NCBI RefSeq assembly: GCF_000003815.2
Contig: NC_049994.1
Coordinates: 12,078,236-12,142,235, forward strand
Length of the DNA: 64,000 bases
DNA from: Branchiostoma floridae
Taxonomy: Eukaryota > Chordata > Leptocardii > Amphioxiformes > Branchiostomatidae
Direction of reading: 5' to 3'
The position numbers were made by a program, and so were the translations under genes. The notes beneath the pieces were generated by a model. That model was not told where the DNA came from. It did no database searches and saw only the letters and a list, made by a program, of their open reading frames with translations. This document shows, one piece after another, positions 1,003 through 64,000 of the stretch; position 1 is the first letter of the stretch, and each line of letters starts with the position of its first letter.

Positions 1003-1080
1003 TGTTCATGCCCGTAGTCTAAATGCTTGTTCATGCCCGTAGGCTAAATGCACAAATGACCACAAGTTGTCTAATGGGTG
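1003..1080 (-). repeat. Dispersed repeat 3' end (copy 1)
   Basis: Read on the minus strand this piece matches the plus-strand stretch at about 5130-5216. Both carry the order 'ttagacaac ... ggtcat ... tagcctacgggcatgaacat', then caata. Here the 'gcctacgggcatgaaca' part occurs twice in tandem. It looks like the 3' end of a retroposon lying in the P450 intron. The family is not identified. Confidence 0.55.
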
Positions 1081-1223
1081 AAAAGGAATAAAAACAACTA
1101 AACTTATTATAGCAGTTGCAGCTAACAACAATACATATGTTCTCGGTTGGTAGTTCAAAATGGTAGTTTTGTTTCGGACCTGATACGGTGAGGGGGAACA
1201 GTAAGAAAGTTGAAAAAACATAC

Positions 1224-1572
1224 CTCGTCCCTTGTGGACTAGGTTGAGTAGCCCCATAGGTGGCCTATCCGAGAAAACGTCCGCTTTCTTGACCAGTGCT
1301 TCAGTCATGGCCCGCCGTCCGGTCAGCACGACCACCAGGCTCGGGCCGAGGCGGAGGCTCATGACGTCACCGTAAGTCTTGGAGAGCTCCATCAGGGTTT
1401 TGTACGGGGTCGGCCCGAGCGACGGCAGGACGCCTATCCCGGGGAAGCCCGCGGGCCCCGGCGGAAGGCCAGGGGGGTTGAAGTGCTGCCACAGCAGGTA
1501 GATACTCATGGCGAAAATAGCGCACAGAAGGAGAAAGTTCGCGCCTTCTTCTACCATACTACACTGTACCAT
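1224..1572 (-). CDS. Cytochrome P450, CYP2 clan, first coding exon (gene runs off left edge)
   Basis: Probable microsomal haem-thiolate monooxygenase; only the N-terminal 116 codons are in the window. Seen: an N-terminal hydrophobic anchor (about residues 10-30), the proline hinge PPGLPPGP, then the first beta-sheet region with YGDVMSLRLGP and VFSDRP, typical of CYP1/2/17/21. The exon ends in phase 1 after HKGRG at a GTATGT donor (intron begins at 1223 on the minus strand). The exon 1 end of the P450 at 27 kb has the same position and phase, and 58 of the last 92 residues match by eye. The start Met at 1572 is the longest choice; a Met five codons in is an alternative. Substrate unknown. The I-helix, ExxR and haem-binding exons are not visible, so I cannot say whether the gene is intact. 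Confidence 0.85.
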
Positions 1573-1644
1573 CGTGGCGAAACTACAAGGGACCGACTGT
1601 GCTAGTGCACGGAAATCGCGCGTGTTCGCCGCACGAAAAACAAC

Positions 1645-1660
1645 AGGTCACTGAGGGTCA
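1645..1660 (+). promoter_or_regulatory. DR4-type nuclear-receptor half-site pair upstream of the P450 start
   Basis: AGGTCA and GGGTCA stand in direct repeat with a 4-base spacer (ctga), 73-88 bases upstream of the P450 ATG. DR4 elements are bound by RXR partners such as LXR, TR, CAR and PXR in vertebrates, and such receptors control CYP genes. No TATA box was seen here. Binding is inference; a 16-base match can occur by chance. Confidence 0.3.
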
Positions 1661-26973: not shown

Positions 26974-27028
26974 GGGACGTGTTCTCGTCCCGTGAGTTCA
27001 TTCATACCTGAGCCTACGACGCACCAAC

Positions 27029-30000
27029 ATGACCGAAGCGATCCTCGACACAGCGGCGGCGGCCGTGGCCTCTCCAACCGAGAACGTCCAGACGTTTCTC
27101 GTGCTCATGTTGGGCCTCCTGGCGGGGTACCTGCTCTGGCGGCGGGTGAACCCGCCCAACCTGCCGCCGGGCCCGTGGGGCCTCCCCGGGCTCGGCGCCA
27201 TCCCGTTCCTCGGGCTGGCCCCGCACGAGACCCTGATGACCATGTCCAAAGCGTACGGTGACATCATGAGCGTGCGTCTCGGGCCGAAGCTTGCCGTGGT
27301 GCTGAACGGACAGAGAGCCATCCACCAGGCACTCATCAAGCGGGCGGGGGTCTTCTCCGACAGGCCGGGCTTTGAGCTGGTCAACATGGTCCATAAGGGA
27401 CGAGGTAAGAAACACATCCTTGTGATTATGAGTTTTATACTTATTACGTTATAGCGAATTAATCAAACCTTGCGTCTTAAGAGATTTTGAGAGGTATGTA
27501 CTATGTAGCATTAACTATATGAAGAATTACTAATTCTAAGATTTTCAAATGGTACTGTTTTATATTATACCCTAGTTTGCTTTTCAAAGTTCCTTTTCTA
27601 ATAATTATGGATGTATCTTCACTCGCCTTAAATCAATGTTGGGAATTAAATGTCTTCTTGACTGTCCGTCAAGCTCTTAGAATATGCTTCTTCCTCAAAG
27701 TTTGATCAGAGTTTAAGTTAGTTAAGTCTTTGCCGCACCTAATGGTGAATCGGGCGGCGCCCATCTCCGTTTCTGTGGCCCTGGGCCGCACAGCTTTGTA
27801 CAACCACTACAGCAAGGGGCTATAGCTAGTCACTGGTAGGGTTGTGTGTTCAAGTACCATACTTTTTCCCCAAATGCTGAGCGCTAAGCTTAGGAAGCAG
27901 TGTGCACAAACTTTAAAGTCTTTGGTATAACTCGGCCAGGATCGAACTCATGAAGTACAACTACAAGGCGATGCTTGAACATAAGTACAGACTACTGTTA
28001 CTTCTCATTGCGGTGCGTTCGGAAACAATTCCTGGCCGGTGGCGTCAAAATTCCTTGTTTTGTCAATGTCAATGAGATTTTCAAATATCCACTTTTAGCC
28101 AGCCTTTTGTACGCCTTTCTTTCAATGGTAAGGAAAAACGCAGTACAAAACGTCACTGTACAACATGGTTACGACATTAATATAGTACATAGCTTTGTGA
28201 ATCTTAGAAAATCGTGAATAACTTTTATAACTACAGCTAATATACACGTAGACGTAAACTCTACTATGCATAAGTGTTCAGCTTACTTTCATGTGCAGAG
28301 CACCTGAAACTGCGTATCCAATAATGAACTTGGGGGTGTACTAAGCAGAGTACTAAGTGCCTTCTTTGTAAGAGAATTTCAGTTATTCTTTTTCCAAACA
28401 TTTAGTTGATATGTTCTTATAGAGATTGAAACATGTAAGCTGTGGTATGGTAAAGGCTTTGCAAATCATAATCATATCAATATCCAACCAACTAGTAGGG
28501 TGGAAAATCTTAAAAAATGACCAGACGGATTGATTTGGATTTATAAAAAGTCCTTCACCCTTTAGTGATTATCGTCCGTCAGAGAGTCTCAGAGAGGTGC
28601 AGTCAGTCAGAAATCATTCTCAGCCAAACATCTGCTTGAAAATCACTCGTTACTGCAATGATACCGGTAATAATGTTCGCTTCTTCCGAATAAGAATTCA
28701 TCATAATCAGACATCATTTTCCATTCTCCTTGACATACATTGTTGCTAAGGACTTCTTCCGCTGTTCCGAGGTATTTCAATCGCCGGAAAACGTTTTGAT
28801 TATACATTGTGCTGGTAACGTTGTAATGATGATATACATCACAGGCATCCGGTATGATAGCTTCCGCAATTCCTCTAACTAAGAGCAAAGCCGCTGTATA
28901 ACGTTAACGTCCTTGCTATGAGACGAGCTTGCTGAAATCTGTATTGTCTTCTTAATTTTACCTATAGACAAGTCGTACAAACGATCTGCCATGTTACAAT
29001 TTGCATATTTCGCTGTTTTTCCATTTGTTGGAAAACGTTGATTGTGGTATGTAGAGGTAATGTTTTGCCTCTTGAATCATAGTACAAAAAGTTCATATTC
29101 TCGTCAGAGGTACATGTGCCTAACTAAACAACACTGACATTTCTTTGGCGCTCTGTCAAGGCCGAATCGATACGCACTTTATAAAGTTTTTGTAGATTTT
29201 TCTTTTCTTAACGGCATATTCTTAACGATTATAACAGAATTGAAATATCAAAGTATGGAAGTTGGATTGCGAGGCAGATTCGTTATAGTAACACTGTGGC
29301 AGCTGTGCGTGGGTGAGTTAGAGTTTTGCCTAACTCGACAACTCGCACAGCAACAGGTGCCCAGTCAATTTGGACTAAACCATCGATAATATGTAAATCT
29401 ACTAGTGCAGTGGTGTATATCATGAAAACATGCTGACTGTTGCTGAGTTGCCGTTTTGCCTAACTCGCCATCGAATTGTAACCTTGCACTGTGGCCTTCG
29501 TTATGCCATGTCAAGGCCGAACCATTAAAACATAGGGGATTTGCAACAACACTATAGTGCTTCAAATAATTCATTGAGGATTCGTAGCAAAGAAAGTCTA
29601 AGGAGACTTGTACTAGCGCAGAAATATCCAAGAGTGTATAAAGAAAACCTTTAAGGGAAACCAATGAAATAACCTGTACAGACCTATGTAAATAATGCTC
29701 TGTGTATTGACATGTTTTCAATAGGGTGAGTAAACATACTTAAGGGGAAAGTCAACACACTTAAGACGGCAGGAGCTTTGCTTAAATACCCCCACACTGA
29801 GCTAGGATTGAGTTATGTGTAGCGGGCTCGATGCAGCGGTCTTCTTACGGCTGAGGGTGAATTCTAATCTGTCGCTAATCTCACATATCTATGGCTTGTG
29901 TTATGAGTAGATTGTTCATTACTTTTGCTGATAAATCTTAATTACTAAGTGGAGTCAACAGTTTACGTAATGGTAGCACACAGCTGCCGTGTCCCACAGC

Positions 30001-33000
30001 TTGTTTATCCTATGATATGTCCAGTCGTCACCCCTCTTCATATCACAGAACCGTTCTTAAGATCGGTAACGTGAAAACTTGTGCGTAGGCGTCAACATTT
30101 TACGTAATTGTACCAACCAGATGTTCTGGTTCTCATGGCATGTTTACACTCTAATCAGTTGATAGACTAGACGTATCATTTTAGATAACATAAAGGTCAC
30201 CTCGCACCTGACAATTTTGGCGGTACCTTAAAGATGCTGGATGTATACAAAAAGCTAAGTCCTTCCTACACCAGATGGCGCATAGGGCGGTGCCCATCTC
30301 CTTTTCAGTAGCCATGGGCCATACAACTTTGTGCAATCACTATAGCAAGGGACTAGTCCACTGGTAGCGGTGTGTGTTCAATTACCACACTACCTAATTC
30401 TGGGTGCTAATCATGTAAAGCAGCATGTAACATCATTAAAAGTCTCTGATATGACTCGGCCGGGGATCTGTTGCCACCTAACGGTATCCTTTGGTACTAC
30501 CGATTACAATAATGCTGTTCGTCCAAATAGGATAGTGTCGTCTTGTCCGTTGTATGTGCCAATAGTTTGACGTCACATTGGAAGGTTGGCAAATTTGTAC
30601 AGCGACAACACTTCTGATCTCACTCTAAAGGCTGCGAACGGCTTGTGACGTCACTAAGAATCGATTCGACACTTCAAGCGGAAGTACAGTAGTGTGATCT
30701 TTGAACCCGAATGCTTCAATAATGCTTGTGGCTTATTGTACCTTATTTGAAGTCCCTTTTTTGGTACTATTCACAATACAAAACTGAGATAGACATTTCG
30801 ATTCAGTACAACGTGCCATTTTGCTGCCATTTATATGTAGAATTTCTCTAACTTATGATCTATTTGCTTACTCGTGTCGTCGCGAAGATCTTAGCTTTTC
30901 CTTTTTTGTGTCTTTTTTCATTTGTTTTGGTTTGATGTGTATTCAGGTGGTATCTCACTAAACTTGGGGCACCGGTGCGGCACTGCGGGGTTCGAAAGAT
31001 TACTTAACGAATTTCAGAGATAAAGAATGGATTTTATTACGTTTTGTGTATTCTGTTGTCTTCTAAATCATACTTCTACGTATTATGCAATATCTAACTT
31101 ATAGAATAAGGCGAAAATAACACAACAGTGCCGCACCGGTGCACCAAGTGCAGTGAAATACCACCTTAAGCACAATATACACGCATATTCACACTCCTAT
31201 TTACAGATACTGACTTTCACTTTGTACACTTGCCACTAATCATGATCGACACATCTTTGTTCCCTTGTTAGGAATCATTGCCGGCCCCAGTACAGACTTC
31301 GTCCAGCGGCAGCGCCGGTTTCTGATGCGATCTTTCCGCACGCTGGGTCTGAACACACACAACATCGAGAACTGTCTCCAGGCTGAGGTGCAAACTCTGA
31401 TGACGACTCTCAAGCAAGTCCAGGGCAACTCTGGAGAGGTGTATGACGTCATCAACCGAAGTGTTGTCAACGCTATCGCGGTCTTCTCATTCGGCAACAG
31501 GTGAGGAATGCCTGTTATGCTCCGGCCACAGTTCCAAACCGATGCCCAGCCGGGCAGTTTAAGAGAGAAGCTTTGTGCACTTTTTGGCAGGGTTATAAGT
31601 AGCATGACTGTGCAGGCCGGTGACCCCCCCCCCCCCCCCCGACTTCAACGCCCATTTTGAATCTGCCACAACCTCTTATACTGTTATATTTTCCAACAGC
31701 CTAGCCGATATAGCTTATAAGAGCAGACAATAAGTTTATTGTCTCATTTTATTAAATGCAATTAAAACTCGAGTTGCAAATTCCTTGAAATGATAAATGC
31801 ATAAATGTCAATAATGCAAATAATGAGATCAACAGACTGGCATGTCATGGAGTTGAAGACAGGTTCATTTCTCTAACCTAATATCCTTTCCATAGGTTCA
31901 ATCACAACGACCCGAAGTTCCACCGCCTGGTCTCCTGCTTGGAAGGCGTGTTCCGCTTCTCCTCCACCGGTGTGGGACTGATGACGCAAGCCTTCCCCGT
32001 CCTGCTCAAGTTCCCCCGCGGCCTGCCCGGCCTCAGCCAGTTCCTCGAAGACGGCGACAACTTCCTCAGCATCATCCGCGACATCGTCAAGTCAAGACGA
32101 CAAGTCTTCGCAGAGATTCTCCAGAAGGACCCGACCCTCGACGACTTCAAGCCGTCCGACATCTTGGACTGCTACTTCCAGGAGACCACGCGCGGGCAGG
32201 CCTGGTTCATGAGCGACGAGGACTTCTGCCACATGATCATGGACAACTACATCGCAGGCACCACCACCACGAGACTCACCATGCAGTGGGCGATGCTCCT
32301 CCTCACCATCTCCCCGAGAGAGCAGACGAAGATGCACGACGAGATAGTGTCAGTCGTCGGGACCGACCGACTGCCCTCGCTGAAAGACAAGGACAACCTC
32401 CCCTACACCAAGGCCGCCATCTTTGAACTGCTGCGCATCTCCTGCGTCACTCCGCTCTCCCTCCCGAGAGAGGCCGCCGATGACGTCATCATCGACGGGC
32501 ACCGGATACCGAAAGGCACGATGGTCATGACGAACCTGTGGTCGGTGACGAATGACCCGGATGTGTGGGAGGACCCGCGGACGTTCAAGCCAGAGAGGTT
32601 CCTGAACGAACAGGGAGAGTGCGTCCTACCCAAGGAGTGGCTGCCGTTCTCCACAGGTGTGTAGATCGAGATTTGCCCACCTTACATTCTATAGCTACTG
32701 CATGAAACTTTTTAATACCTTCCTAATATGTCAATACAATGCTATTTGACACCAACTTCATAGTTATTGGTGGTATGACATCCAAGTGTAAGCATTGTTC
32801 AGAGACTAAATAGGGTTTACACAACAGAGTAAAACTTTTCTCACGAGCTCCATGAATAGTTTTATCTAAAAATATTCGTACTCCATTTCCAATCTGATCC
32901 ACTTATATTCATAAACCATGATAAATGGTGATACAAGTTTGGTCACGTTTAGAGCCGAATCCTTTACACAGGAGCGCCACCTAGCAGTTGGAAGCAAAAC

Positions 33001-33319
33001 CAGTCATATTGGCCTGATAAAGATAGCAAAAGGGCTACCAAAACGTAGGAACATGAATATCACTTGAGTCTGTGTGAAGAATATTTTTTGTCTACCATTA
33101 TCTCACGACAGCGTATACATTTTCCCTGCAGGAAAGCGGTCGTGCATAGGACAGGCCATCGCAGAAAGCATGATGTTCATGTACATCTCGGCCATCGTAC
33201 AAAACTACCGGATCTACCTCCCCGCCGGGAAAACCGTCCCCACAGCGGAGCCCATCCCGGCCATGCATCTCCATCCTCAGCCGTGTGAAATTAGCTTTGC
33301 CAAATATCCTCCTTGTTAG
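27029..33319 (+). CDS. Cytochrome P450, CYP2 clan, complete (4 exons, 517 aa)
   Basis: Probable ER-anchored haem-thiolate enzyme; substrate unknown. Exons 27029-27404, 31272-31500, 31896-32656 and 33132-33319; the intron phases 1, 2 and 1 keep one frame to TAG. Seen: N-terminal anchor (about 20-40), PPNLPPGP hinge, I-helix with AGTTTT, ExxR as ELLR, PERF-type FKPERF, and haem loop FSTGKRSCIGQ holding the cysteine ligand. From memory, introns 1 and 3 match vertebrate CYP2 positions (the third splits the haem loop after FSTG), while the large exon 3 has no internal introns. Odd: the C-helix Trp (WxxxR) is Val here (FVQRQRRF), and the I-helix acid before the conserved Thr is Thr. Intron 1 (3.9 kb) carries two SINEs and a TIR element. 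The relevant nearest family (CYP2, CYP17 or a cephalochordate branch) cannot be settled by eye. Confidence 0.92.
27727..27990 (-). mobile_element. tRNA-derived SINE (family B) in P450 intron 1
   Basis: On the minus strand a tRNA-like head with B box GAGTTCGATCCTGGCC is followed by a body ending 'ggagatgggcgccgcccg'. The same order occurs at 30226-30490 and 42695-43060, with fragments at 9060 and 24410. Confidence 0.65.
27991..30225. other. P450 intron 1 sequence, no further gene
   Basis: AT-rich intron without exons in frame. Around 29290-29480 'gagttagagttttgcctaac', 'ctcgacaactcgcac' and 'gagttgccgttttgcctaac' form an imperfect internal repeat. Confidence 0.5.
30226..30490 (-). mobile_element. 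SINE family B, second copy in P450 intron 1
   Basis: Contains 'aagctaagtccttcctacac', 'agggcggtgcccatctcc', 'ggccatacaactttgtgcaa', 'gggactagtccactgg' and 'gactcggccggggatc', colinear with 27727-27990. The head B box is less well preserved. Confidence 0.6.
30945..31166. mobile_element. TIR element in P450 intron 1, 222 bp
   Basis: The left end AGGTGGTATCTCACTAAACT and right end (inverse) AGGTGGTATTTCACTGCACT continue to a shared GCACCGGTGCGGCACTG on both sides. The TIR is about 40 bases, the interior AT-rich and non-coding. It ends 105 bases before exon 2. Confidence 0.75.
31622..31641 (+). repeat. Poly(C) tract in P450 intron 2
   Basis: An uninterrupted run of about 18-19 C after 'ccggtga', in the short intron between exons 2 and 3. 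Confidence 0.8.
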
Positions 33320-45988: not shown

Positions 45989-48100
45989 ACCTCTCACCAT
46001 TGAACAGACGCATTTATTTATCATTAAGAGATGAAGTTCTATATCTAGAATGTATACTCTAAATGCCAAATACTGACAACAACCTCTTGGATCCTAAATG
46101 TACTGAATTATACCACAGTCACAGTGAGAAAGTACTGTGTCCAAACATACTATTAGGCCGGAAATATATCTATTACAGGAACATTGGTCAGGGTAGTAGT
46201 TTCCCTTGTGTAGTTGATAACAGTCAAACACCTTTTCAGTTAGTAATTTCCCGTTTTCGTCATTGTCCTTGTTAGCTGTCAAGGGCGTGTTAGTTCTTCA
46301 CACTCTGTATACTTGCGATTTACACTTAATACGTCATACCAATACTGTTCATTTATTATTGGTGAAAGGGCTTCATAGGGACATAGTGACTTGTATCTAA
46401 CTTCTTGCAATGCTCGTGTGTTTTGAACTTCGAGTGAAGTCTGATTATAGTCTTTCGGGTGTATAATGGTCCAGGAAGAATGAATATTTTCCACTGCCTA
46501 TTTTTAAAGCTTGATCAAATGTATATTTTTCCGGTTTTGCGTGAAGTAAAGATTATGGTCTTATAGCACCGGCAGAAGGCTTGTTTTATAAGTTTCCTAA
46601 GAATTAAATGATAAACGTAAACACGAAATAGTTTGTGTTATTTATCTAATAAGACTGCTGTCTTAAATATGTCACAATGGAATTGGATATTGATAGAGAG
46701 TGTCTCTTTGCGAAACAAGATTGCACATTAATTAGAGCTATTGTCTCAGCACAATTTGTATCATGCGAACTATCGGGCTGGAATTCCTATTGTTAAAAGC
46801 AAACCTGTTTTCGATTTTACTTTTGTACACTGGTAAAAAAATTGGCAAAATGTACCGCTGCGTTATCAGTGCTTTGTTGGACTCGTAACTGATTCCTCGT
46901 GGGTCAGTCTAGGCTAGTAGCGTGTCACAGTGTAGTGTTTCCACTGCCCACTGATAGAAGATACCCTGAGCTTAGTCTGAAAACACAAGAAAATATCTCT
47001 GGTTGGGCGTCTTGTACGTCTGCCAGATACTTGGCATGCGCGAGTTCATTTGTGTGACCTTAAGGACCCTTATGCGGATTGTTGTTACGATGATAAGTGA
47101 TAAATGCGATGTCAGGGATGACTAGAACACGTAGAGCTTAAGGAAAAAGCTTAAAATATCGATTATCTTCCCATGTATGAAAGATAATACATTGGTTGAA
47201 GGACCTTTGGTTGCCAGCTCGAGAATCGTTGATCTGACTTTGTTGAAACGGCGCCTAAAGTTGACTCTGCTCGGGAAGACAAGGCGCCAGACATTGCCAT
47301 TTGATCTCTCGTACTTTGTGCGAGTAGTGTACAGGAAATAATGCTGACGTCACATCCTTTACCTAGGCGACATGTTAACAGAAAAACGCAATTTAAAGTC
47401 ACCTTTAATGGCCTATTACCTATTGGCGTGGGATTTTATTTTACTATTTATGGTGTAGCTGTCCTGGCCGCAGACGTGTTTTTAAGTTGAAGCATGCCGC
47501 CTTCTATTGTACGGATGTTCTGCCCATTGGGAATGTTTCTGTTATTCGAATGTTTCTGTTAGAGCGGATTTGAAGAATTGACAATTCTTTTGCTTATGTA
47601 TTTTTGTTTTCACTTTTTTAGATGCCGCTAGCTTATCAGACATTGTAGAAACTATTTCGAAAGACGTTAATCTTTTTATACTTTTATGTACTCACGAATT
47701 TTACTTTCCACATGTAGCATTTTTTCTCTGATAACGAATGTAGTTTATTGGTTACATTCTTTTGCAGTTCCGGCTCTTGGTACGTCTTCTATTCTTAGAA
47801 AAATAATATCCGGTCTAACAAAAGCGTTTTATGAAAATCGATTTAACCAAAAGTAAAATGAAATGGGAATTAATTATAGCACCACAATATCTGGTAATGA
47901 AAATCAATGATAAACTTAAGAAATTTATGTATGTACCTCATCAACACGTCAACATCAAAAGATTTTCACAAATCCTTACACGGTGGTTTTTCTCCTGAAG
48001 GATGATAAATCTGTGACGTCAGCATCTGTACTTATAACGTCAGTCTGTCAGTCAACGCTAGAGCATGATTCTGACGTGACGTACGTTGTTGTTTCTGCAG
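45989..48100. other. Possible leader and intron of the peptide gene, otherwise empty
   Basis: No coding exon recognised. More TGACGTCA words lie at 47344 and 48014. Confidence 0.3.
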
Positions 48101-48115
48101 GCAGTGAAGACTACC

Positions 48116-48926
48116 ATGGACGCGAGGATAGTTGCGCTGGTTGTGGCGGTGTTGGTGACAGAGGCGTGCGGGTTACACCAGCTGCATGACCGCGGCACGG
48201 ATGTGTATCTGCCCAACCCCCAGAGCCGAAGAGGTGCGTTTTATCATACACATTAGATGTAATCCTTTGCTATACTTTCTCGTCATCATCCTTTCGTTGC
48301 TTGCTTTCCTACTTCATTCGTTATCTTTTTTTTTTGGCTAGATTGTCGGGTTGAAATACTCTTTTATTTTGATATGAGATTTGCTTTTATTAATTTTGAT
48401 ATTCATTTACGATTTTAATCTAGTTTACAGGCTTGGTGGCACCAGTTGGTTTGCAACAATAAAAGGTTAGAACGCTATTGTCTTTTTCTCCTCTTGCGTT
48501 TTTTTTCTTTTTTGTTATTTCTTTCGGTTTTAATTCTGCCCCTATTCTTTCAGACACATCTTTTGTTTGCATTACATGATGTCGGTTGCCTTTTGCTGAC
48601 AACATTCATCCATTATATCATTAAAGATTTAAAGATAATTCTAAATTTCTGGAAATATTTTCTTTTTAGCCGGAGCAACACCGCACAAATGGTACGAAAC
48701 CATTATGCGGCTCGACTCACCCCATTTTGGCAAAAGACGCTCCGTGACCGACTACAGCCTTAACGTCCCCGATGACAAGGTCGTTGGAGGAATCGACGAT
48801 CGTCGGGAGGGTCCGGAAAGAGTCCCGATTATCCTTTCCGACAGCGATGTCGGAAGGGATCGGCAACGTTCGGGAGAGAGAATCTTCCAAGTGAACAGAG
48901 GCGGCCAAAAATGCGTTTGCTGGTGA
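48116..48926 (+). CDS. Secreted peptide-hormone precursor candidate (2 exons, 124 aa)
   Basis: Predicted to enter the secretory pathway and release an amidated peptide. Exons 48101(acceptor)-48233 and 48670-48926; the phase-1 intron has GT/AG ends, and the ATG is in strong context (accATGG). Seen: hydrophobic signal peptide (about 1-18, ending EACG), a short spacer, dibasic RR at 38-39, then a 20-residue segment AGATPHKWYETIMRLDSPHF (40-59), Gly60 as amide donor and KRR at 61-63. After that comes an acidic, Arg-rich C-terminal part with possible RR cleavage near 83-84 and a CVCW tail. The splice joins within the codon after RR, so the peptide starts exon 2. Single-copy peptide; the C-terminal His-Phe-amide fits no family I recognise. 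A small secreted protein without processing is the alternative. Single exon pair, frame open throughout. Confidence 0.72.
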
Positions 48927-49262
48927 CGTCAAAAATATGGCTGGAAATGATGATTCTCAGAATTTTTGTCTTTGGCTCAAAATGTTTTAAGTACAGCTAG
49001 CTGACACTATGAACTTATCAACTTTAGAATTGATGATTGTTTACATGATTTCATCATGTTTTGATATTCTACATTGTATCAAAAGAGGTGTTTAAGAGAT
49101 TCAAGCAAGTGGCAGATGTATTGTACCACACAGATAACACAAAGAATTTGATGAAGAATTGGCCGTTTTCAGCACTAGTCTTACATGTAGCAGTGCATAT
49201 ATAGGTCTATTGAATTCATTTATCTGTTATGAGGTGAATAGAATCGTAAACATAAGAATAAT

Positions 49263-49273
49263 AATAAAATAAA
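49263..49273 (+). terminator. Polyadenylation signal of the peptide gene
   Basis: Two overlapping AATAAA hexamers lie about 340 bases after the stop, followed by TG/T-rich sequence (catttcatgaattcattttg). They give a compact 3' UTR. Confidence 0.55.
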
Positions 49274-49475
49274 TCTGACAACCTTTACATTTCATGAATT
49301 CATTTTGTCGTGTCTTAACTCGCTTTTTTTTTTACTTTTTAAACTTGAACATTAACAACTAGAGTACAAAACTAACACTGCATTGAGTCTATACAACTTT
49401 TATGACAGCGCAATACATATCAATAACTAATAAAAGCAGAACAGGCACTGACGTGATATTGGAATAAAACAATTT

Positions 49476-52980: not shown

Positions 52981-55900
52981 TCACTGGCGGAAGAGTTTCT
53001 CCTGAACGTCCGGAAACCCTGGTCGGCCCAAGGCTGGCTTTACGGATTCCCAGTATTCCCTGGTATCCTTTCCGCTGGAGAAACAAAAGTATGACAGACG
53101 CAAGAAGAGTAGATATAGTTAGTCTGAGCTCTTTCTCTTCGCAATGCTTCGTGCTAGCTGTGGTAATCTGAATTCAAACAAAAGATATACAGAACACAAC
53201 CCAGTGTTGCTGTATCGAGTGAACTGCACCGCCATGTTTGATAGTGTGGTAACTTTCTATAGCGTTTTCGGTAGTTTTTGCTCGCGTCCTGGTGGTCAGC
53301 TTTTCCCATTTAATCTTGTCACGACTCATGTAAGGGCTGAGTAAAGGGCTATAAACAAAATACGTCCTCTTAGTGTTGCCACGGCTACTTTTGTGACATA
53401 AGGTAGCAGAATACAGTTTTCGGCCTATGGGGCTTCCTATAGTTAAGGACCGCAAGGTGACTGACATCGACGCGGATAAAATTATAGTAGGGTGCATTTG
53501 GGAAGCACGACAGACTAGTATGTTAAAGTCGAGGGTACAACGTACAAAATAACCAAAAACAAAAAATATTGTGGTTTTTTAACATTGTGACGCCCTCTTT
53601 GAAATAGGGTCATGCGGGGTCACCCGGAACTGCAGCCGACTCACTTAGACAGCCAGCTGTAAAGGTCACGCGTATTTAAACAACGACAGGCCAAACTGAA
53701 AAATCTCATTCGTGCCATCTGAAAGCCGACATATTATGCTGCCACACAGTAAAGTTCATCCCTCGCTTACATGTACTTTAAGGTATTTACGAACGATTGA
53801 AGATTTCGACCGCACTATGTTTTTACCCCTACGTCATTAACTCCGGGGGTCGCGTAGAAATACTGTACTCTGCCGCCATAACTGAAAAATGAAATTGATC
53901 AAGAGTACTCAAAGAAATTAGCATTTAGAAATAGTGATTTCTGCAAACGCCATGACATACATCAGTATAGCGTCTGTCATATAACTACGGTGAACGACAA
54001 TGTGATGTACTAGTAATCCTTACTTGATAAAGTCTTTCTCAGACTGGTCCGTCTTCAGCGCCCCTCCCCACGGCAAATGTTTCTTGCTGGCGTCTCCGAG
54101 CTTTCCTCCGCGCTCTGGAGACAGCTACGAAACGTAAAGAAATATACTGTGCGCTTCAGTACAGTTAATATTATATATCTCATATCTTTAATCATGTTAT
54201 TGCAAATTTATTTAAGAGGAATATCTATTTCATATCCCCGTCTAATGTCGTGAGAAATATGTCTGAAAGAAGTGACCTACTAACTCGATTTCACCAGGTG
54301 ATTTATTTGCTGTACTCTAATTTCATTAATGAAGCCGAAAATTTGCACAAGACAAAACAATGACAAAACAATGCAAGACGACGGGGAAAATGGTAAACGG
54401 CAAAGTGAGAATCAACAACAAAATTCCTCTAGTCGACACCAGTGACTACCTCTTCCGATATAGCCCGGATGTGGTGAGGTTCAAATCCACAGCAGCCGCC
54501 GATGTACCTGACCCCGAGGTCAAAGGCCGCTCGGGCGAAGTGGTGGACTTCAAAGCGGGTCATCTGCCGAGGGCCCAGAGCTGGCGAGGGAATGTAGAAA
54601 AACATTTGAAGAACAACTAGATATTTCTAGATTTTACAATCTACTATAAATGACCTAAACGTTAGAACGTTGTCTTGATAAATTCGTGTGGTCTCATGCC
54701 TGTATTTACTCCGAATGGTCACTCTCAAAGAATCCTTTCTGAATATAATTGGGCCCCAGAAGCGTGTTTCTGTGACGATCATAAATTCCCTTTCATCACG
54801 CTGATATAACAATGAATTGACATGAAAGTTTGTGTAATTCTGACAGGATTGGTCGGAAAGTTTCGGCATTCATTTTCCAATCTTTCATGCCAACTGATCA
54901 AATGTTGCAATTAGTTACTTTGATTATTACTTAACAAAATATAGTATTCTTACCGAACGGAAACTCCGGCAAGATGGTCCATCCGTTCTTCGTCTGCTCG
55001 GTCTCCGGTGAGTGGTAGCCGTTTGGTTGGACCATCAGATACGGGGACAGTCCTGCCTTCTCCAGCGCATCCTTCATCATCTTTATAGTCTTCAGACAGG
55101 TGTTGGCATCAAACCGGCAGTTCAATCCAACCACGTCAGCACCTACAAAGAGATAGTACAATGAGGCATTAAGGTTCATCTACTGATAATGCTCACATCT
55201 TATAATGGAAGCTCATCTGTAATCATTATAAAATGCTTAACTTTCTTCCAACACAAAGGCATACACGGATCAAATTTTCAATGACCACCTTGGTCTTCTT
55301 CAGGATCAATGCTGATGACCAATCACTTCAGAATATAAACTCGAAAGAACATTTGATCCCAGTGCCTTTGTATATAGTAAGAAAATTTAGCACTGTACTA
55401 TGCTCGCTTCTTGTTAACATTCTGTACCGACTGAGGCAACATGTTGGACTTTGATACGGAATTCTTTGCTAGGTCGGAGAACAAATTTGCATAGCAGATA
55501 TGTCAGCTGCCTCGATGGCGCAGTAGGCAGCGCGTGAGTCTCATAATCTCAAGGTCGTGAGTTCGATCCTCACTCGGGGCAAATTCTTTTTTGGATGTTT
55601 TTCTCATCCAATACTTGTTGTTGTTTGTTACCATTTGTAAGGTGTCTTTAAATTTATTTTATCCAACTTTATCCAACTTAAGACATCAAGAGCGTGTGAC
55701 TTTTTTCATCTTGTGATCCCTGACCAGACTGCCAAGAACGCGTGACTACACCAAAGTGTAACACGAGGAGCAACGAGTCGAACGTGGTGGGAAGTTGGTA
55801 TCGTCCTCCGTCCCGGGATATGAAGCACTCGCCTAATCTACGGTAGCACAAGATAGTATCAAAAACTGACAAAGGACTGAGTGAGGCCGCCCTAGGAGTG

Positions 55901-58005
55901 TACATTGGCTACCGGAAGCTATACAGACTCCTAGGCCGGCTATACTTTTTTTGATACCATATAATATGCTACGGTAACCGTATTATCTGCTTGGAGATTA
56001 GCACCCACCTGCTTTAGCCATCCTGACGGCACACTCCCCGACTGGAACGCCGCTGTCGTCTCCTGTCGGCCCGATACGCAGGGTACAGGCTACGGGCTTC
56101 CCTTTTCCCTTCAGCACTTCGATAGCCCACTCGGCCTCCTCCACGTTACCAATGAACTACACAGATACCGGTACGTTCAGTCAAAAAAGAATCTTCCTAC
56201 TAGTACCATGCGTACTTCGACACGACAAGTTTTTGGTAACGCCACCTTCCCTTTGAGCTGGTGAAAATGTGGTAATAAACCGTACTACAGATCGCATGAC
56301 TTTCCACTTAACACACAATAAAGCTCTGCACAGATACGTTTCCTAGTACATGTATACGCACTGCGATACGACAAGTCCTGCTTGTTTTTGGTAGCGCCAC
56401 CAGATCGCGTGACTTTCCACAACCAATAGCAAGTCCAGAACATAAGACGCGAGTCTCGTCGACCTAGTCTCACACTCGTCTTGCGAGACTGGGTCACTCC
56501 ATGAACAAGATAGACCGACAGCCATCGAAAATTTAGAGATTCTTGTGTATACCTTTAAAAGAAGTCAGTGTTAGATGAAAATTCTATCAACAGAACATAA
56601 AGCGAATTTGCTGTTTGAGACGACGAAGCTGACGTGACTTACCTCAGCCAATAGGAAGTCCACATCTTGTTCCATGAAACTGTCGACCTGTTTGCTGAAC
56701 TCCTTCTGTACGGCTGCCCTTCCCTTCCCCTGTGCGTAAGATGGAGTGTTGGATAACCCTCCACAGACGAGGGTATCTCCGTCCCCAACAACCTCCTTCA
56801 CTATAGTACATGCCTGGTCGTTCATTTCTTTGCACTGGATGTGAAATAAACGCACACAACGTATGGTATTTGTTTATTAAACGTATCTACATGTTGCCTC
56901 CTCTTGAAAAACAAAATACACAGGTAAACAATGTAAGACAAAACGGTACTAATAACAGTAACAATTAGAAGCAAAGTATAACTTGATACACTATAAATAA
57001 AACATAAATACAAAGCAATGAAACAGAATGAAATTTTGTTTCGTGTGAAACTTACGTTGATGTTACGATAGGGTATTGCCAAGTTTAAACAAGAGTCGTT
57101 GTGAGATATTGAAAAATAAAAATAGGTAATGAGCCAACTTGCAAATGAGCTGGACCAGTGCGTATGTAGAGAGAGAGAGAGAGAGAATCTCCAGGCATAA
57201 CATAGTATCAAAGTTGCGTAGGATCTGCTTGGAGATGATGAGTTTCAAACGGTTTCCTTACCGTGATGCTCTTGCCAGTCTCGTTCCCAGGGGCGTCAGG
57301 ACCAGACAGAGACAGTCTGTCGTCTGTCGACCAGAATGTGAAGGCCTGGAGCACATCTGCGCCTGCGCGCATGAACTCTCGGTGTAACTGTTTTACTGTA
57401 AGTATGAAATTAGCATAAGTAGATAGCGTGAGCATCACTTATAATAAGCTATCTACATACCCAAAAACATGACGATCCGTCAACCCATTCTTGAGTCATT
57501 CCCTTTCAAAGTCTGACCTAAACACCCAGGTCCCTTCCAAATCAAGCCGCTAGAGGGTCCAAATCCATACCACTTACTCTCGGCGTCAACAGCTATCTAC
57601 CACTAAAACAAAACCATGGGCCACGACTATAACATGTTCAGAAATTGAGATATCAAATCCGGAACTTCCGCCGTAGCACCGTACCAACACGCTAGGGGGC
57701 TCGTACCAAGTATCAAGACAAGCCAGTATTCTGGAATTAAGGTGGTCAACTACATAGACACAAACACAGACACATACAGACATATACCAACGCTACAGAA
57801 AACCTTGTAGCGAAGGTAAAATGAATATTTTCACTCAAGAAGAAACCTCTATGCCTAACCCACCGGCCTCAGGATGTTCGATGACGACCTCTGTGGTGTA
57901 GGGTCCGGCCATGACGTAACCCCGCTTCTCCAGCGTGAAGACATAACCCCCGTCTCCTATCACAGGGCCCTCCTGCAGCCGCTCCAGTAAACCTTTTTTC
58001 ACCAT
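52981..58005 (-). CDS. BHMT: Betaine-homocysteine S-methyltransferase (8 coding exons, 376 aa)
   Basis: Cytosolic zinc enzyme moving a methyl group from betaine to homocysteine, giving dimethylglycine and methionine. Exons in order: 57864-58005, 57262-57395, 56643-56834, 56009-56156, 54954-55142, 54450-54580, 54024-54124, 52981-53074. All have GT/AG borders and compatible phases (1,0,0,1,1,0,2). Seen: GDGGYVF and LEKRGYV at the start, GLNCRFD (Cys214) and [10 protein letters not shown] (Cys298, Cys299), the three zinc ligands (human 217, 299, 300). The C-terminus ends [13 protein letters not shown] to FRQ, shorter than the 406-aa human protein. The ATG follows an AG acceptor directly, so an untranslated leader exon is needed. 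Odd: human Trp44 corresponds to Tyr36 here, and the Tyr after the LLAE Glu is Phe. A second copy of the first coding exon lies upstream at 59623. Confidence 0.95.
55509..55581 (+). tRNA. tRNA-Met (elongator), anticodon CAT
   Basis: A 73-base intronless tRNA with all arms intact: acceptor GCCTCGA/TCGGGGC (one G-T pair), D arm with GCGCAGTAGGCAGCGC, anticodon CAT at 55542-55544 in loop CTCATAA, and T arm GTGAGTTCGATCCTCAC. It matches the vertebrate elongator Met gene almost base for base as I remember it. A TTTT Pol III stop follows nearby (aaattcttttttgg). It sits on the opposite strand inside the BHMT intron between the exons at 56009 and 54954. Confidence 0.95.
55834..56000. mobile_element. 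MITE family M9, copy 4, at a BHMT splice donor
   Basis: 167 bp. The right TIR GGTAACCGTATTATCTGCTT then GGAGATTA matches the family. The left TIR lacks about 11 bases (TAATCTACGGTAGCACAAG). Target duplication gcactcgcc (55825-55833) / gcacccacc (56001-56009), two mismatches. The right copy spans the last base of a BHMT exon plus its GTGGGTGC donor, so the element entered exactly there. Confidence 0.82.
57186..57237. mobile_element. M9 remnant in BHMT intron
   Basis: 'aatctccaggcataacatag', 'tatcaaag' and 'gtaggatctgcttggagat' are the two M9 tips with almost no interior. It ends 24 bases from the donor of the BHMT exon at 57262 and follows a (GA)n run. Confidence 0.6.
57462..57800 (+). repeat. 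Dispersed repeat R1 (copy 2)
   Basis: Colinear with 2030-2410: 'atgacgatccgtcaa', 'ccctttcaaagtctgac', 'cgctagagggtcc', 'cagctatctaccact', 'ccggaacttccgc'. It lies in a BHMT intron. Confidence 0.6.
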
Positions 58006-58995
58006 CTTATGATACAAGATAAATGCAAGGGTACGAAGAGTCACAACAAGCTTAAGGACTAGGAGATCTTTAACATTTCGGATGAGAGTAGCCGTATATA
58101 AACAACGATTGTGAAAAGCAGCGCGGAATCTAGATGGTCTAAGGTACTTGGCCCTGCCTATATGTCACCGCAAGCGAGGGAACGCCAGCACCTGTAAGCT
58201 TCGTACACACACTCGCACACCACAGCCTCAACAAACTGCTCAAAGTTCAAAGGTTGAAGAACCTAGCTGCCTAAAACTGCAAATCAGAAAGATAAGTACA
58301 CGGGCGAATACACAGACTTTCACGGCTAACCACAAGATTCTCACATAGCGCTCACACTAATGGAGTAAACAATACTGTTTTGATACTGATTGCATGTGTT
58401 GTTTTTACCTCTTTTAGCCGACTTGCTAGCTCGATACACTCCACAACAAACCGCGGCCGTCAGGTCGTTTACAGTTCAAAGTGCAATCCGGGGGGTCTCG
58501 TATCAGTGTTCGTAGTATGGAACACTGTATTCCTAAGGGACCATTCAAAATCATATCTGCCATAATTTGGCATCTGATGAATCTACCGTATGATGCATCT
58601 AATATGAAAATTCGACATTGTCATTATGAATCTTCTGTAATTTTCAATTGAAACTGGATACGTATTTGCGAAAATGTACATAATGTATTCATCAAGTTCT
58701 CCCTGTACATTGTCAATAAGAATTATTCATACCCTTGCCAAGCCAATAATGATGACAAGGGACATGGCTGATTATGTATGTCTACATGTCTGTGGTGCAT
58801 CCTTGTTGTAAGGGTATCGTGACGTAAGTATATGTGTGAACGCGCGCGCGTGTGTGTGCGTACAGGTTTGGCATATGTGCATGTGGTGTGTATGTGGTAC
58901 ATGTACATTCGTCTGTGCGAGATGGTGTACAATTTCTACAATGTGTACCATATATAATGTTGTAAACCCTCTACGTGACAAATGACAGGTCGAAC
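57830..58995. repeat. Tandem duplication unit 1 of the BHMT 5' end
   Basis: Colinear with 59577-60673. Shared landmarks: first coding exon, 'aacatttcggat', 'aaagcagc(g/a)cggaatcta', 'gaacgccagcac', 'ctagctcgatacactccac', an alternating (GT)(GC) tract and 'ccctctacg..acaaatgaca'. It contains one probable untranslated exon and one coding exon on the minus strand. Confidence 0.85.
58409..58460 (-). promoter_or_regulatory. Probable untranslated BHMT exon 1 (proximal copy)
   Basis: On the minus strand, 'gagtgtatcgagctagcaag' followed by tcggctaaaagag ends at a good donor (GTAAAAAC), preceded by CGGCCGCGG. There is no ATG, which fits a leader exon joined to the ATG at 58005. The same exon and donor are preserved in the distal unit. 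The 5' limit is unknown and no TATA box was seen. Confidence 0.4.
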
Positions 58996-59282
58996 GCTCA
59001 AACGTTCCAGATACGCGTACCTTACGCTACCGCCAAAGTGATCTTGTCGGGAACTGTAAGAGCTGCATGGCCGCAATATGCGGTGTTTTTGTATCGACGG
59101 GACCGGAAATGGTGTGACCGTGGCCGCGTTGGAGAGGTGGCCGCTATAGATTATTTCTTAATGCTTAGGTCAATGGAAAAAATCAAAGGGACCGACAAAA
59201 AGTGCCCACAGTGGTCAGGTGACCGCTATGCAAAGGTGGCCGCTAATACAGGTTTGACTGTAGATAGAAAATTGCCTACTCT

Positions 59283-59560
59283 GAAATGAATAGAAAAGTC
59301 GCTAGGGGGCCAAACCTACACCATTCACTCTCATGTCCCAAGAGTTATCTACTACAATATGTCCCGGACACACATCAAAACCGGAAGTTCTGTGAGATAG
59401 CCGACGGGTAGGGAACCCATTTATCGAACTTATCTTCATTTTACTGACACCTACCCACCAACGGTGACCAACCAAATATCATTAGATCTATCCATAGCTT
59501 CTTAAATTCTGCTGTCCACTGGCACAAACGGCACCGAAAATATAGTCTTCAAGGTAGCAA
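59283..59560 (+). repeat. Dispersed repeat R1 (copy 3, partial)
   Basis: 'gtcgctagggggccaaacct', 'ccaagagttatctactac' and 'aaccggaagttctg' match R1. It separates the two BHMT 5' units. Confidence 0.55.
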
Positions 59561-59622
59561 GGTACATATATGAAGAAGGAAGAATATTTTCACACAAGGA
59601 GAAAATTCTACGCCGAACCCAC

Positions 59623-59764
59623 CGGCCTCAGGATGTTCGATGACGACCTCTGTGGTGCACGGTCCGGCCATGACGTAACCCCGCTTCTCCAGCGTGAAGA
59701 CATAACCCCCGTCTCCTATCACAGGGCCCTCCTGCAGCCGTTCAAGTAGACCTGTTTTCACCAT
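59623..59764 (-). CDS. BHMT: Alternative first coding exon of BHMT (distal copy)
   Basis: 142 bp, same length, phase and borders as the exon at 57864-58005 (AG before the ATG, donor GTGGGT). The 47 encoded residues differ from the proximal copy at two places only: residue 4 Thr for Lys and residue 36 Cys for Tyr. Four other base changes are silent. No further BHMT exons lie between the two copies, so this exon can only join the shared exon at 57262-57395, skipping the proximal one. Residue 36 matches human Trp44, an active-site aromatic. It could be a used alternative exon or a fading duplicate; the intact frame and splice sites favour use. Confidence 0.75.
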
Positions 59765-61686: not shown

Positions 61687-64000
61687 ATGTACCAGATGGC
61701 TACCAACACCAGGGACCCGAATCCTATGTACAAGCATAGTACCCAGACCTCCAGTGGGAAAGAAGCAGTAAACAGCCGAGACCCGAACCCGGCGTACCCA
61801 CAACACGCCCCCACGCCCCCACTAAACGTTTCCACCGAACCCGCTAGCAGTGAAGGCGCCCCCTGCCTCCAGCCATGTGCATCTGCATCTGCACAGCAGA
61901 ACAATGTTCATCTGACTTGTGTACTGTCAAACACTGATGATGATGATGGTGGTTGTGATGATGATGATGGTGGTGGCGATGATGATGATGGTGGTGGTGA
62001 TGATGGTGAGGAGGAGGAGGACGATGGTGAAGATGCTGCTGATGATGATGATGGTCGTGGTGGTGATGAAGATGACGATGATGATTACATGGACGTAGAC
62101 GATGCTGTTGCATCTTCGAGAGGACAAGTACCTGACGATATCCTAGAGGATTCCGACATTGAACCATACGCTGTTGCATACATGGACCAGCATGACCTGA
62201 CGTTTGGGGAAGATTCGGGAGAAACGCAATCAAAATCGTCTTCAAGTAGCAACATTGGAATCTCCACCAGGAGACAACCAGAAAGTCAACAATCCACAAA
62301 TAATGCTGATATTTCAGCCTTCGCTGTGAATAATGACGACACAATGGGAGCTCGACATCTTCATAACATTCCGCATCCTAATGTAACGCATGCACAGAAT
62401 GCTCCTATCCCCATATCAACGCGCGCACAAAACGCCTTGCGGCCGAATCCGATGTATGGACAGAATGCTCCGACTCCGGCGTACGTGCCAAACGCTGAAC
62501 AAGAACCAGCATGTGGTGAGTTACATCTATTAGTTTGAAAATATTTGTTTGAAATACCATTGTTTAAACCAAAATTAGTGAATTTTGTAAAGTATGCCTT
62601 TCAGAAACCCGTGCCATGGCAACACGAAAAATTACTAACTTTTTTGTAAATTGTTGCCAACAATATTTTAGGAAAAGTCGCCAAGTTTAGTTGTTCTAGC
62701 ACAAGCCGTTTGGGAGATATAAAACGTCAAAGTTGGCGGTCACTTTTAGCGCCACAACCCCCCACCCCCATCCCCGTCTGAATAGGGCTAACCGTGTACT
62801 GTGATGCTTGTGCTATGATCCTTGTAGTCATCCTTATGTATATACAATATCATTCCGGGCCGTTGTCTGAGAAATAATTCAATCTTTTGTCAAACAAAAA
62901 TTTTCCAGAATGTAATCGTCTCCGAGTGTACGTTGCAATAGTAGCAGCTATCATGGTGTTCATTTGGATCATGGGAGGAATCTTTGCCGCCATTTACTTC
63001 AAGACTGACCCACATAATCATCAAAAGGTAGGCCAACGTCGTTTCTGCTTGTACGAAGACATTCTGATATTAAATGCTTCCACGAGCTAGTTGCTATCTT
63101 ACAGATTTATGGTACAATGAATCCTGAGAAAATTTGAAAAGCCCTTGGGAGATGCTGTAGATGATGCTTTCCAAATGCTCTCCACTAAAAGATTAGTATT
63201 TTAAACGCACAAGAAGATGAAAGTATTGTCTTGTTCTTGTTCTTTTGCAGATGAGATCTGTCAATTGTTCTATTGGTCAAAACGTAGCACCCACGCTGAC
63301 AGCAACCTCAAAAACAAACGTTAAGGTCACCATTGGTGGGAAAGGATTCTACCCTGGGAAATTTTCAGAGCCACGTGGAGTAGCCGTTTCCTCCGAAGAG
63401 ATTTTTGTGTCTGATATGAAGAACAAACGAGTCCAAGTCTTCAGCATGTCAGGAGTCTACCTCCGTTTCTTCCCAACCATACTGCTAGGTAAAAATGGGG
63501 AAGCCATGTTCCCTACTGATGTCGCTATTGACGGTGAGGGTCTTGTGTGGGTGGTGGGGCGACCTTATGTTGGCGAAGACGTGCTATTTGTGGTACAGTA
63601 CGACCCAAACGGTGTGCCTGTGACCAAGGTGGACGTACAATGCTGGGCTTGGTACCCCAACATTGCCGTGGACGCAAATAACAACAAGATCGTTGTGGAA
63701 ACGTCTGACGAAATTTGGATCTTTCTGACAAACAGCTCGTTTGAGAGGCGGTTTGGAAAAGATCAAGAACTAGAAATTGACTACGTCACAACAAACAAAG
63801 ACGGGGATGTACTTGTCACTGACTATACATCCCGCGGTGTCTATGTGTACACCAATTCTGGGAATTTGCGATTCAGATTTGGAGGCCGGGGAAGCGCTGA
63901 AGCTCAATTCCGGTTCCCGAGAGGCATTTGTACGGACCGTTTTGGTAACATCCTCGTGGCTAACCAGGGTAATGGGCGGGTCGACATGTTCACAAGCCGC
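61687..64000 (+). CDS. Type II membrane protein with extracellular NHL-repeat propeller (3' end outside window)
   Basis: Exons 61687-62515, 62909-63027 and 63251 to beyond 64000; phases 1 and 0, good splice sites, 566 residues visible. Seen: N-terminal tail with NPMY (12-15), NPAY (34-37) and NPMY (254-257), an Asp/Gly/Glu block at about 83-139 from GAT/GGT repeats, CNRLR, then one hydrophobic helix (about 283-307). Next come an NCS glycosylation sequon (321-323) and from about residue 342 NHL-type blades (KFSEPRGVAV..IFVSD..RVQVF; FPRGICTD..NILVAN..RVDMF), about five so far. Positive charges before the helix place the N-terminus inside. NPxY motifs are known sites for endocytic or PTB adaptors. 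Homologues are often labelled TRIM2/3-like from the NHL part alone, but no RING or B-box is present. Ligand unknown. An AG directly before the ATG allows an upstream leader exon. Confidence 0.88.
61938..62095 (+). repeat. In-frame (GAT/GGT)n coding repeat
   Basis: Codon-level repeat giving Asp/Gly runs within the cytoplasmic tail of the NHL gene. The His-rich frame on the other strand is its shadow. Length variation between alleles is likely for such a repeat. Confidence 0.8.

Follow-up and report, generated by a model that had tools for sequence, protein, structure and literature searches.

The window analysed here, a 64-kb stretch of the Branchiostoma floridae genome (C16:12078236-12142235; the genome comprises 513 Mb in 431 contigs), raises the question of whether a short spliced frame on its forward strand encodes a peptide prohormone and, if so, to which peptide family the product belongs. 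The original prediction proposed a two-exon gene with a signal-like start, RR, 20 residues, Gly and KRR, in which the peptide opens exon 2, and we obtained the same layout on re-derivation, with each position rechecked. At a probability of roughly 0.65, we read the locus as a gene, present in one copy, whose secreted prohormone would yield one C-terminally amidated 20-residue signalling peptide, fitting none of the families tried.

The two coding parts, 48116-48233 and 48670-48926, splice in frame to give an unbroken frame of 124 residues, as rechecked base by base (Table 1). From its N-terminus, the precursor has a signal-like segment and a spacer of 18 residues; RR then precedes the 20-residue peptide, which is followed by G, KRR and a tail of 61 residues that closes with KCVCW, the last feature being present as the original prediction had described it. 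Past the signal-like segment, the precursor has two cysteines, and both are in the C-terminal tail. The intron is in phase 1 and splits the codon of peptide residue 1 immediately after RR. A further non-coding 5' exon upstream of 48101 is likely, because an acceptor-like sequence ends immediately before that position, and this may bring the number of exons to three. At the other end, a weak donor-like GT at 48922-48923 overlaps the stop codon (TGCTG|GTGACG); splicing from this GT, if it occurs, would give the gene another 3' end and the protein a C-terminus other than CVCW.

Table 1. Predicted features of the candidate gene (positions in the window)
Feature	Position	Strand	Basis
Probable 5' UTR portion of the first coding exon	48101..48115	+	Follows acceptor-like TTTCTGCAG ending at 48100; predicted from sequence
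Signal-peptide-like start MDARIVALVVAVLVTEACG, ATG at 48116	48116..48172	+	Hydropathy criterion; cleavage site predicted by the -3,-1 rule
Spacer propeptide LHQLHDRGTDVYLPNPQS	48173..48226	+	Sequence reading
Dibasic site RR	48227..48232	+	Exon end at 48233, donor GT at 48234
Intron, phase 1, 436 bases, GC 0.31	48234..48669	+	Splice sites, GC content
Peptide AGATPHKWYETIMRLDSPHF	48670..48728	+	First codon starts with base 48233; exon 2 starts at 48670
Predicted amide-donor Gly and cleavage site KRR	48729..48740	+	Sequence reading
Polar C-terminal propeptide ending in KCVCW, stop TGA (48924-48926)	48741..48926	+	Sequence reading
Probable 3' UTR, AATAAA at 49263	48927..49280	+	GC content, polyadenylation signal

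The base composition changes sharply along the gene, and these steps coincide with the predicted splice sites. The GC content is 0.335 upstream (47600-48100), 0.606 in 48102-48233, 0.312 in the intron, 0.549 in the coding part of exon 2 and 0.314 in the 3' part (48927-49280). Among window segments of equal length, 1.7% reach the GC content of exon 1 and 2.6% that of exon 2. We scanned for the layout itself, defined as an ATG with a hydrophobic core, a donor, an acceptor and RR...G[KR][KR] extending into exon 2; the N-terminus of the precursor has a core hydrophobic enough for the hydropathy criterion of the scan, and the candidate gene is the only match in the window. Dinucleotide shuffles of the window gave at least one layout match in 28 of 400 cases (mean 0.08 start codons per shuffle), after 2 of 8 in an earlier, smaller run. 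None of the 400 combined a match with an exon-intron GC contrast of at least 0.2 on both sides, although this part of the control is weak because shuffling flattens composition. The same scan of twenty further 10-kb samples from this genome (200,000 bases, of which 11,861 are N) gave 1 match, which shows no such GC contrast, its exons being GC-poorer than its intron. Thus, from this match and those in the shuffles, the layout alone would recur by chance many times in 513 Mb, and it is the layout, the composition steps, the splice sites and the polyadenylation signal taken together that make the gene convincing. Codon statistics, with five window exons as the training set, gave no separation of the strands: per codon, the score of exon 2 is 0.114 in frame, against 0.128 in one complement frame.

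To place the gene in its genome, we compared the precursor with all 513 Mb. The 24-residue segment spanning residues 40-63 has a single match, and the whole-protein search revealed no second copy or paralogue; it returned the two exons of the gene itself and one stretch of C19 that contains a stop (16.3 bits, E 2.8) and looks like a chance match. The neighbouring genes are of other kinds. A cytochrome P450 gene (PF00067) lies upstream on the + strand, with exons among 26996-33316, and more P450 exons (PF00067) are found at 1009-1647 (-), so that those in the window represent at least two genes. Downstream, on the - strand, are homocysteine S-methyltransferase exons (54432-57438), three of which match Pfam, one with a score under the curated cut-off; the region 54432-59764 (-) is betaine-type as judged by eye. 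Two near-identical first-exon-like copies in that region, at 57838-58164 and 59552-59764, suggest a tandem duplicate or a pseudogene. Farther along on the + strand are a 283-codon open frame (61687-62535), which contains an extended run of Asp, Gly and Glu as well as RDPNP-like repeat units and has no Pfam match, and an NHL-repeat protein (63221-64000) that extends past the window end. The P450 and homocysteine S-methyltransferase neighbours give no pointer to the role of the peptide gene. The window is also rich in the palindrome TGACGTCA, which we take to be the CRE consensus: it occurs 24 times with differing flanks, against 1.07 expected from dinucleotides, at sites including 8839, 8847, 47345, 48014 and 48924, and one copy contains the stop codon of the candidate gene. 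It is common genome-wide, with 17 copies per 200,000 bases in the twenty further 10-kb samples, and is about four times denser in the window.

The prohormone reading is supported by the spliced frame, the GC steps at the splice sites, the polyadenylation signal and the sole layout match in the window, together with the single copy and the lack of a Pfam domain of another kind or a relative among solved structures. As in an amidated-peptide prohormone, basic sites bracket the peptide, with a Gly before the second (RR...GKRR). If it is processed like other amidated peptides, the precursor would lose its signal peptide near residue 19, a prohormone convertase would cleave after RR and KRR, a carboxypeptidase would trim the basic residues, and PAM would convert the Gly to an amide on Phe. 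The product, AGATPHKWYETIMRLDSPHF-NH2, would then be released in a regulated manner from neurons or endocrine cells and act on a G-protein-coupled receptor. The KCVCW tail has no role in this scheme.

Two other readings of the locus dispense with a peptide hormone. The frame may be secreted without being a prohormone, with RR and GKRR arising fortuitously in a protein with an arginine-rich tail, and the several further basic pairs in that tail, the chance occurrence of the layout and CVCW, which hints at some use of the C-terminus, are in keeping with this. However, the segment enclosed by RR and Gly-Lys-Arg-Arg contains Trp and Tyr and takes up the beginning of its own exon, and Pfam recognises no folded domain, so we consider such a protein unlikely. 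That there is no gene at all, only a chance open frame, is what the layout matches in the shuffles and in the control DNA would allow; against this stand the GC steps, the splice consensus on both sides of the intron and the polyadenylation signal, and we judge it very unlikely.

Regarding known families, the closest comparisons are with PrRP and spexin. A diverged PrRP/sNPF-type peptide, with an HF-amide replacing the C-terminal RF-amide in a paralogue or lineage variant, appears quite improbable. According to passages of PMC7314547, PrRP peptides have 20-31 residues, deuterostome PrRP genes have in common an intron of phase 1 that interrupts the peptide N-terminally or centrally, and echinoderm PrRP genes have an uninterrupted 3' coding part. 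The candidate matches this description in its 20 residues, its phase-1 intron in the first peptide codon at the N-terminal end and its uninterrupted 3' part, and, like the vertebrate PrRP and starfish ArPrRP precursors described there, it would carry one peptide of about 20 residues with an amidated C-terminal Phe. W8-Y9 and F20 also coincide, without gaps, with human PrRP20, and the His codon, CAT, is one transition away from an Arg codon. However, the RF- or RY-amide end that defines the family in the same passages (PMC7314547) is absent, since the candidate ends in HF, and an 18-residue spacer and RR precede the peptide. The gapless similarity (human: p = 0.039, or 0.12 if the final F is held constant; starfish: p = 0.026, or 0.13) is not significant over 38 peptides. 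A genome search with Pfam Prolactin_RP (PF15172) gave nothing above the cut-off, and its 3 weak matches, none of them at the candidate locus, look like chance. LRRFIP, a neighbour of PRLH in human, lies on C10, whereas the candidate gene lies on C16. Moreover, a B. floridae PrRP candidate with an RF/RY-amide has already been reported in the passages of PMC7314547. PrRP as a family was therefore rejected on the missing RF end, the non-significant similarity and the linked gene on C10. The spexin precursor (PF15171) resembles the candidate in its signal peptide, RR, single amidated peptide, G-[KR]-R and long tail, and the W-x4-M-x7-G-[KR]-R spacing is identical to that of human spexin, whose sequence we verified as Pfam Spexin (E 3.8e-52). 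The galanin profile had no match in the 513-Mb genome at E 10; this leaves no galanin candidate at other loci, a point in favour of an amphioxus spexin/galanin-type ligand at this one, and galanin itself was rejected on the same result. Nevertheless, such a ligand is the least probable of the readings weighed here, and very improbable in itself. The spexin alignment, with z 1.6 and p 0.09, ranks 12th of 49 and falls short of significance, Pfam Spexin does not match the candidate precursor, and its 2 weak matches in the genome lie elsewhere, each with a stop, and look like chance. The candidate peptide has 20 residues in place of 14 and lacks the Y-L core that galanin and spexin share. GOLT1 and GYS, the neighbours of human SPX, are found on C4 and on the unplaced C184 and C172, and not on C16 with the candidate gene. 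Spexin, a lead that came from the spacing alone, was thus rejected on the alignment statistics, the profile search and the linkage. The linkage results lower but do not exclude the PrRP and spexin readings, because they use one or two markers each and rely on human gene order.

The original prediction also called the peptide unrecognised, perhaps cephalochordate-specific or overlooked, and the searches of Pfam, solved structures, peptide panels and, for galanin, the genome gave no match to a known family. The Pfam hmmscan of the precursor gave no match up to E 10, at settings whose filters drop most weak matches, and phmmer found no relative among solved structures. The panels consisted of 49 peptides (local alignment) and 38 peptides (gapless), and among the matches listed (the best 15 of 49 and the best 14 of 38) none is significant after correction for 49 or 38. 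The lowest p values are 0.0067 for SALMFamide and pancreatic polypeptide in the former (about 0.3 corrected) and 0.0066 for phoenixin and allatotropin in the latter (about 0.25 corrected), and these four, despite their top ranks, were rejected on this correction. For example, phoenixin-20 shares with the candidate the length of 20 residues, the AG start and the F-amide end, but its precursor, SMIM20, is not known to have a layout of this kind. MCH was considered because of the C-terminal CW and rejected, since its ring is Cx8C and the candidate precursor has CxC. The RF-amide-like C-terminus of kisspeptin is absent, and the similarity to human kisspeptin-10, the one kisspeptin sequence compared, is not significant in either panel. 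In passages of PMC12002301, deuterostome bombesin-type precursors likewise have their peptide region split by a phase-1 intron, and the echinoderm consensus C-terminus RIFGPXX-amide is similar in spacing to RLDSPHF-amide of the candidate. However, the candidate lacks the PRXN motif, and the further phase-0 intron that those passages place in the C-terminal coding region is absent, exon 2 being open to the stop; the passages also describe another, different bombesin-type peptide in amphioxus (PMC12002301). In passages of the open-access literature, we found no report of an amphioxus spexin. A word search of that literature for the fragments HKWYETIM, KWYETI, SPHFamide and SPHF-NH2 gave no occurrence, and DSPHF appeared under titles on scallop hydrolysate, nickel catalysts and locusts.

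The prohormone kind described here is already known, and the peptide is a good candidate and not an established discovery. Mirabeau and Joly are said to have published a list of amphioxus neuropeptides in 2013. Passages of PMC7314547 and PMC12002301 report several other amphioxus peptides. Amphioxus split off ahead of the genome duplications of vertebrates, so that each of its peptides helps to date vertebrate hormone systems. Candidate ligands are wanted because receptors outnumber or lack known peptides: in the passages of the two sources, B. floridae has 16 kisspeptin-type receptors and 4 precursors (PMC9400282), and the sea urchin has galanin-type receptors without known peptides (PMC5860471). 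The concrete sequence of the candidate peptide permits direct receptor screening. If lineage-specific, it would be one more among many such peptides. At a low probability, well below that of the prohormone reading itself, the gene may encode the first member of a chordate peptide system not yet on record, namely the ligand of an amphioxus orphan peptide receptor from a family that has been lost in vertebrates or has diverged there beyond recognition.
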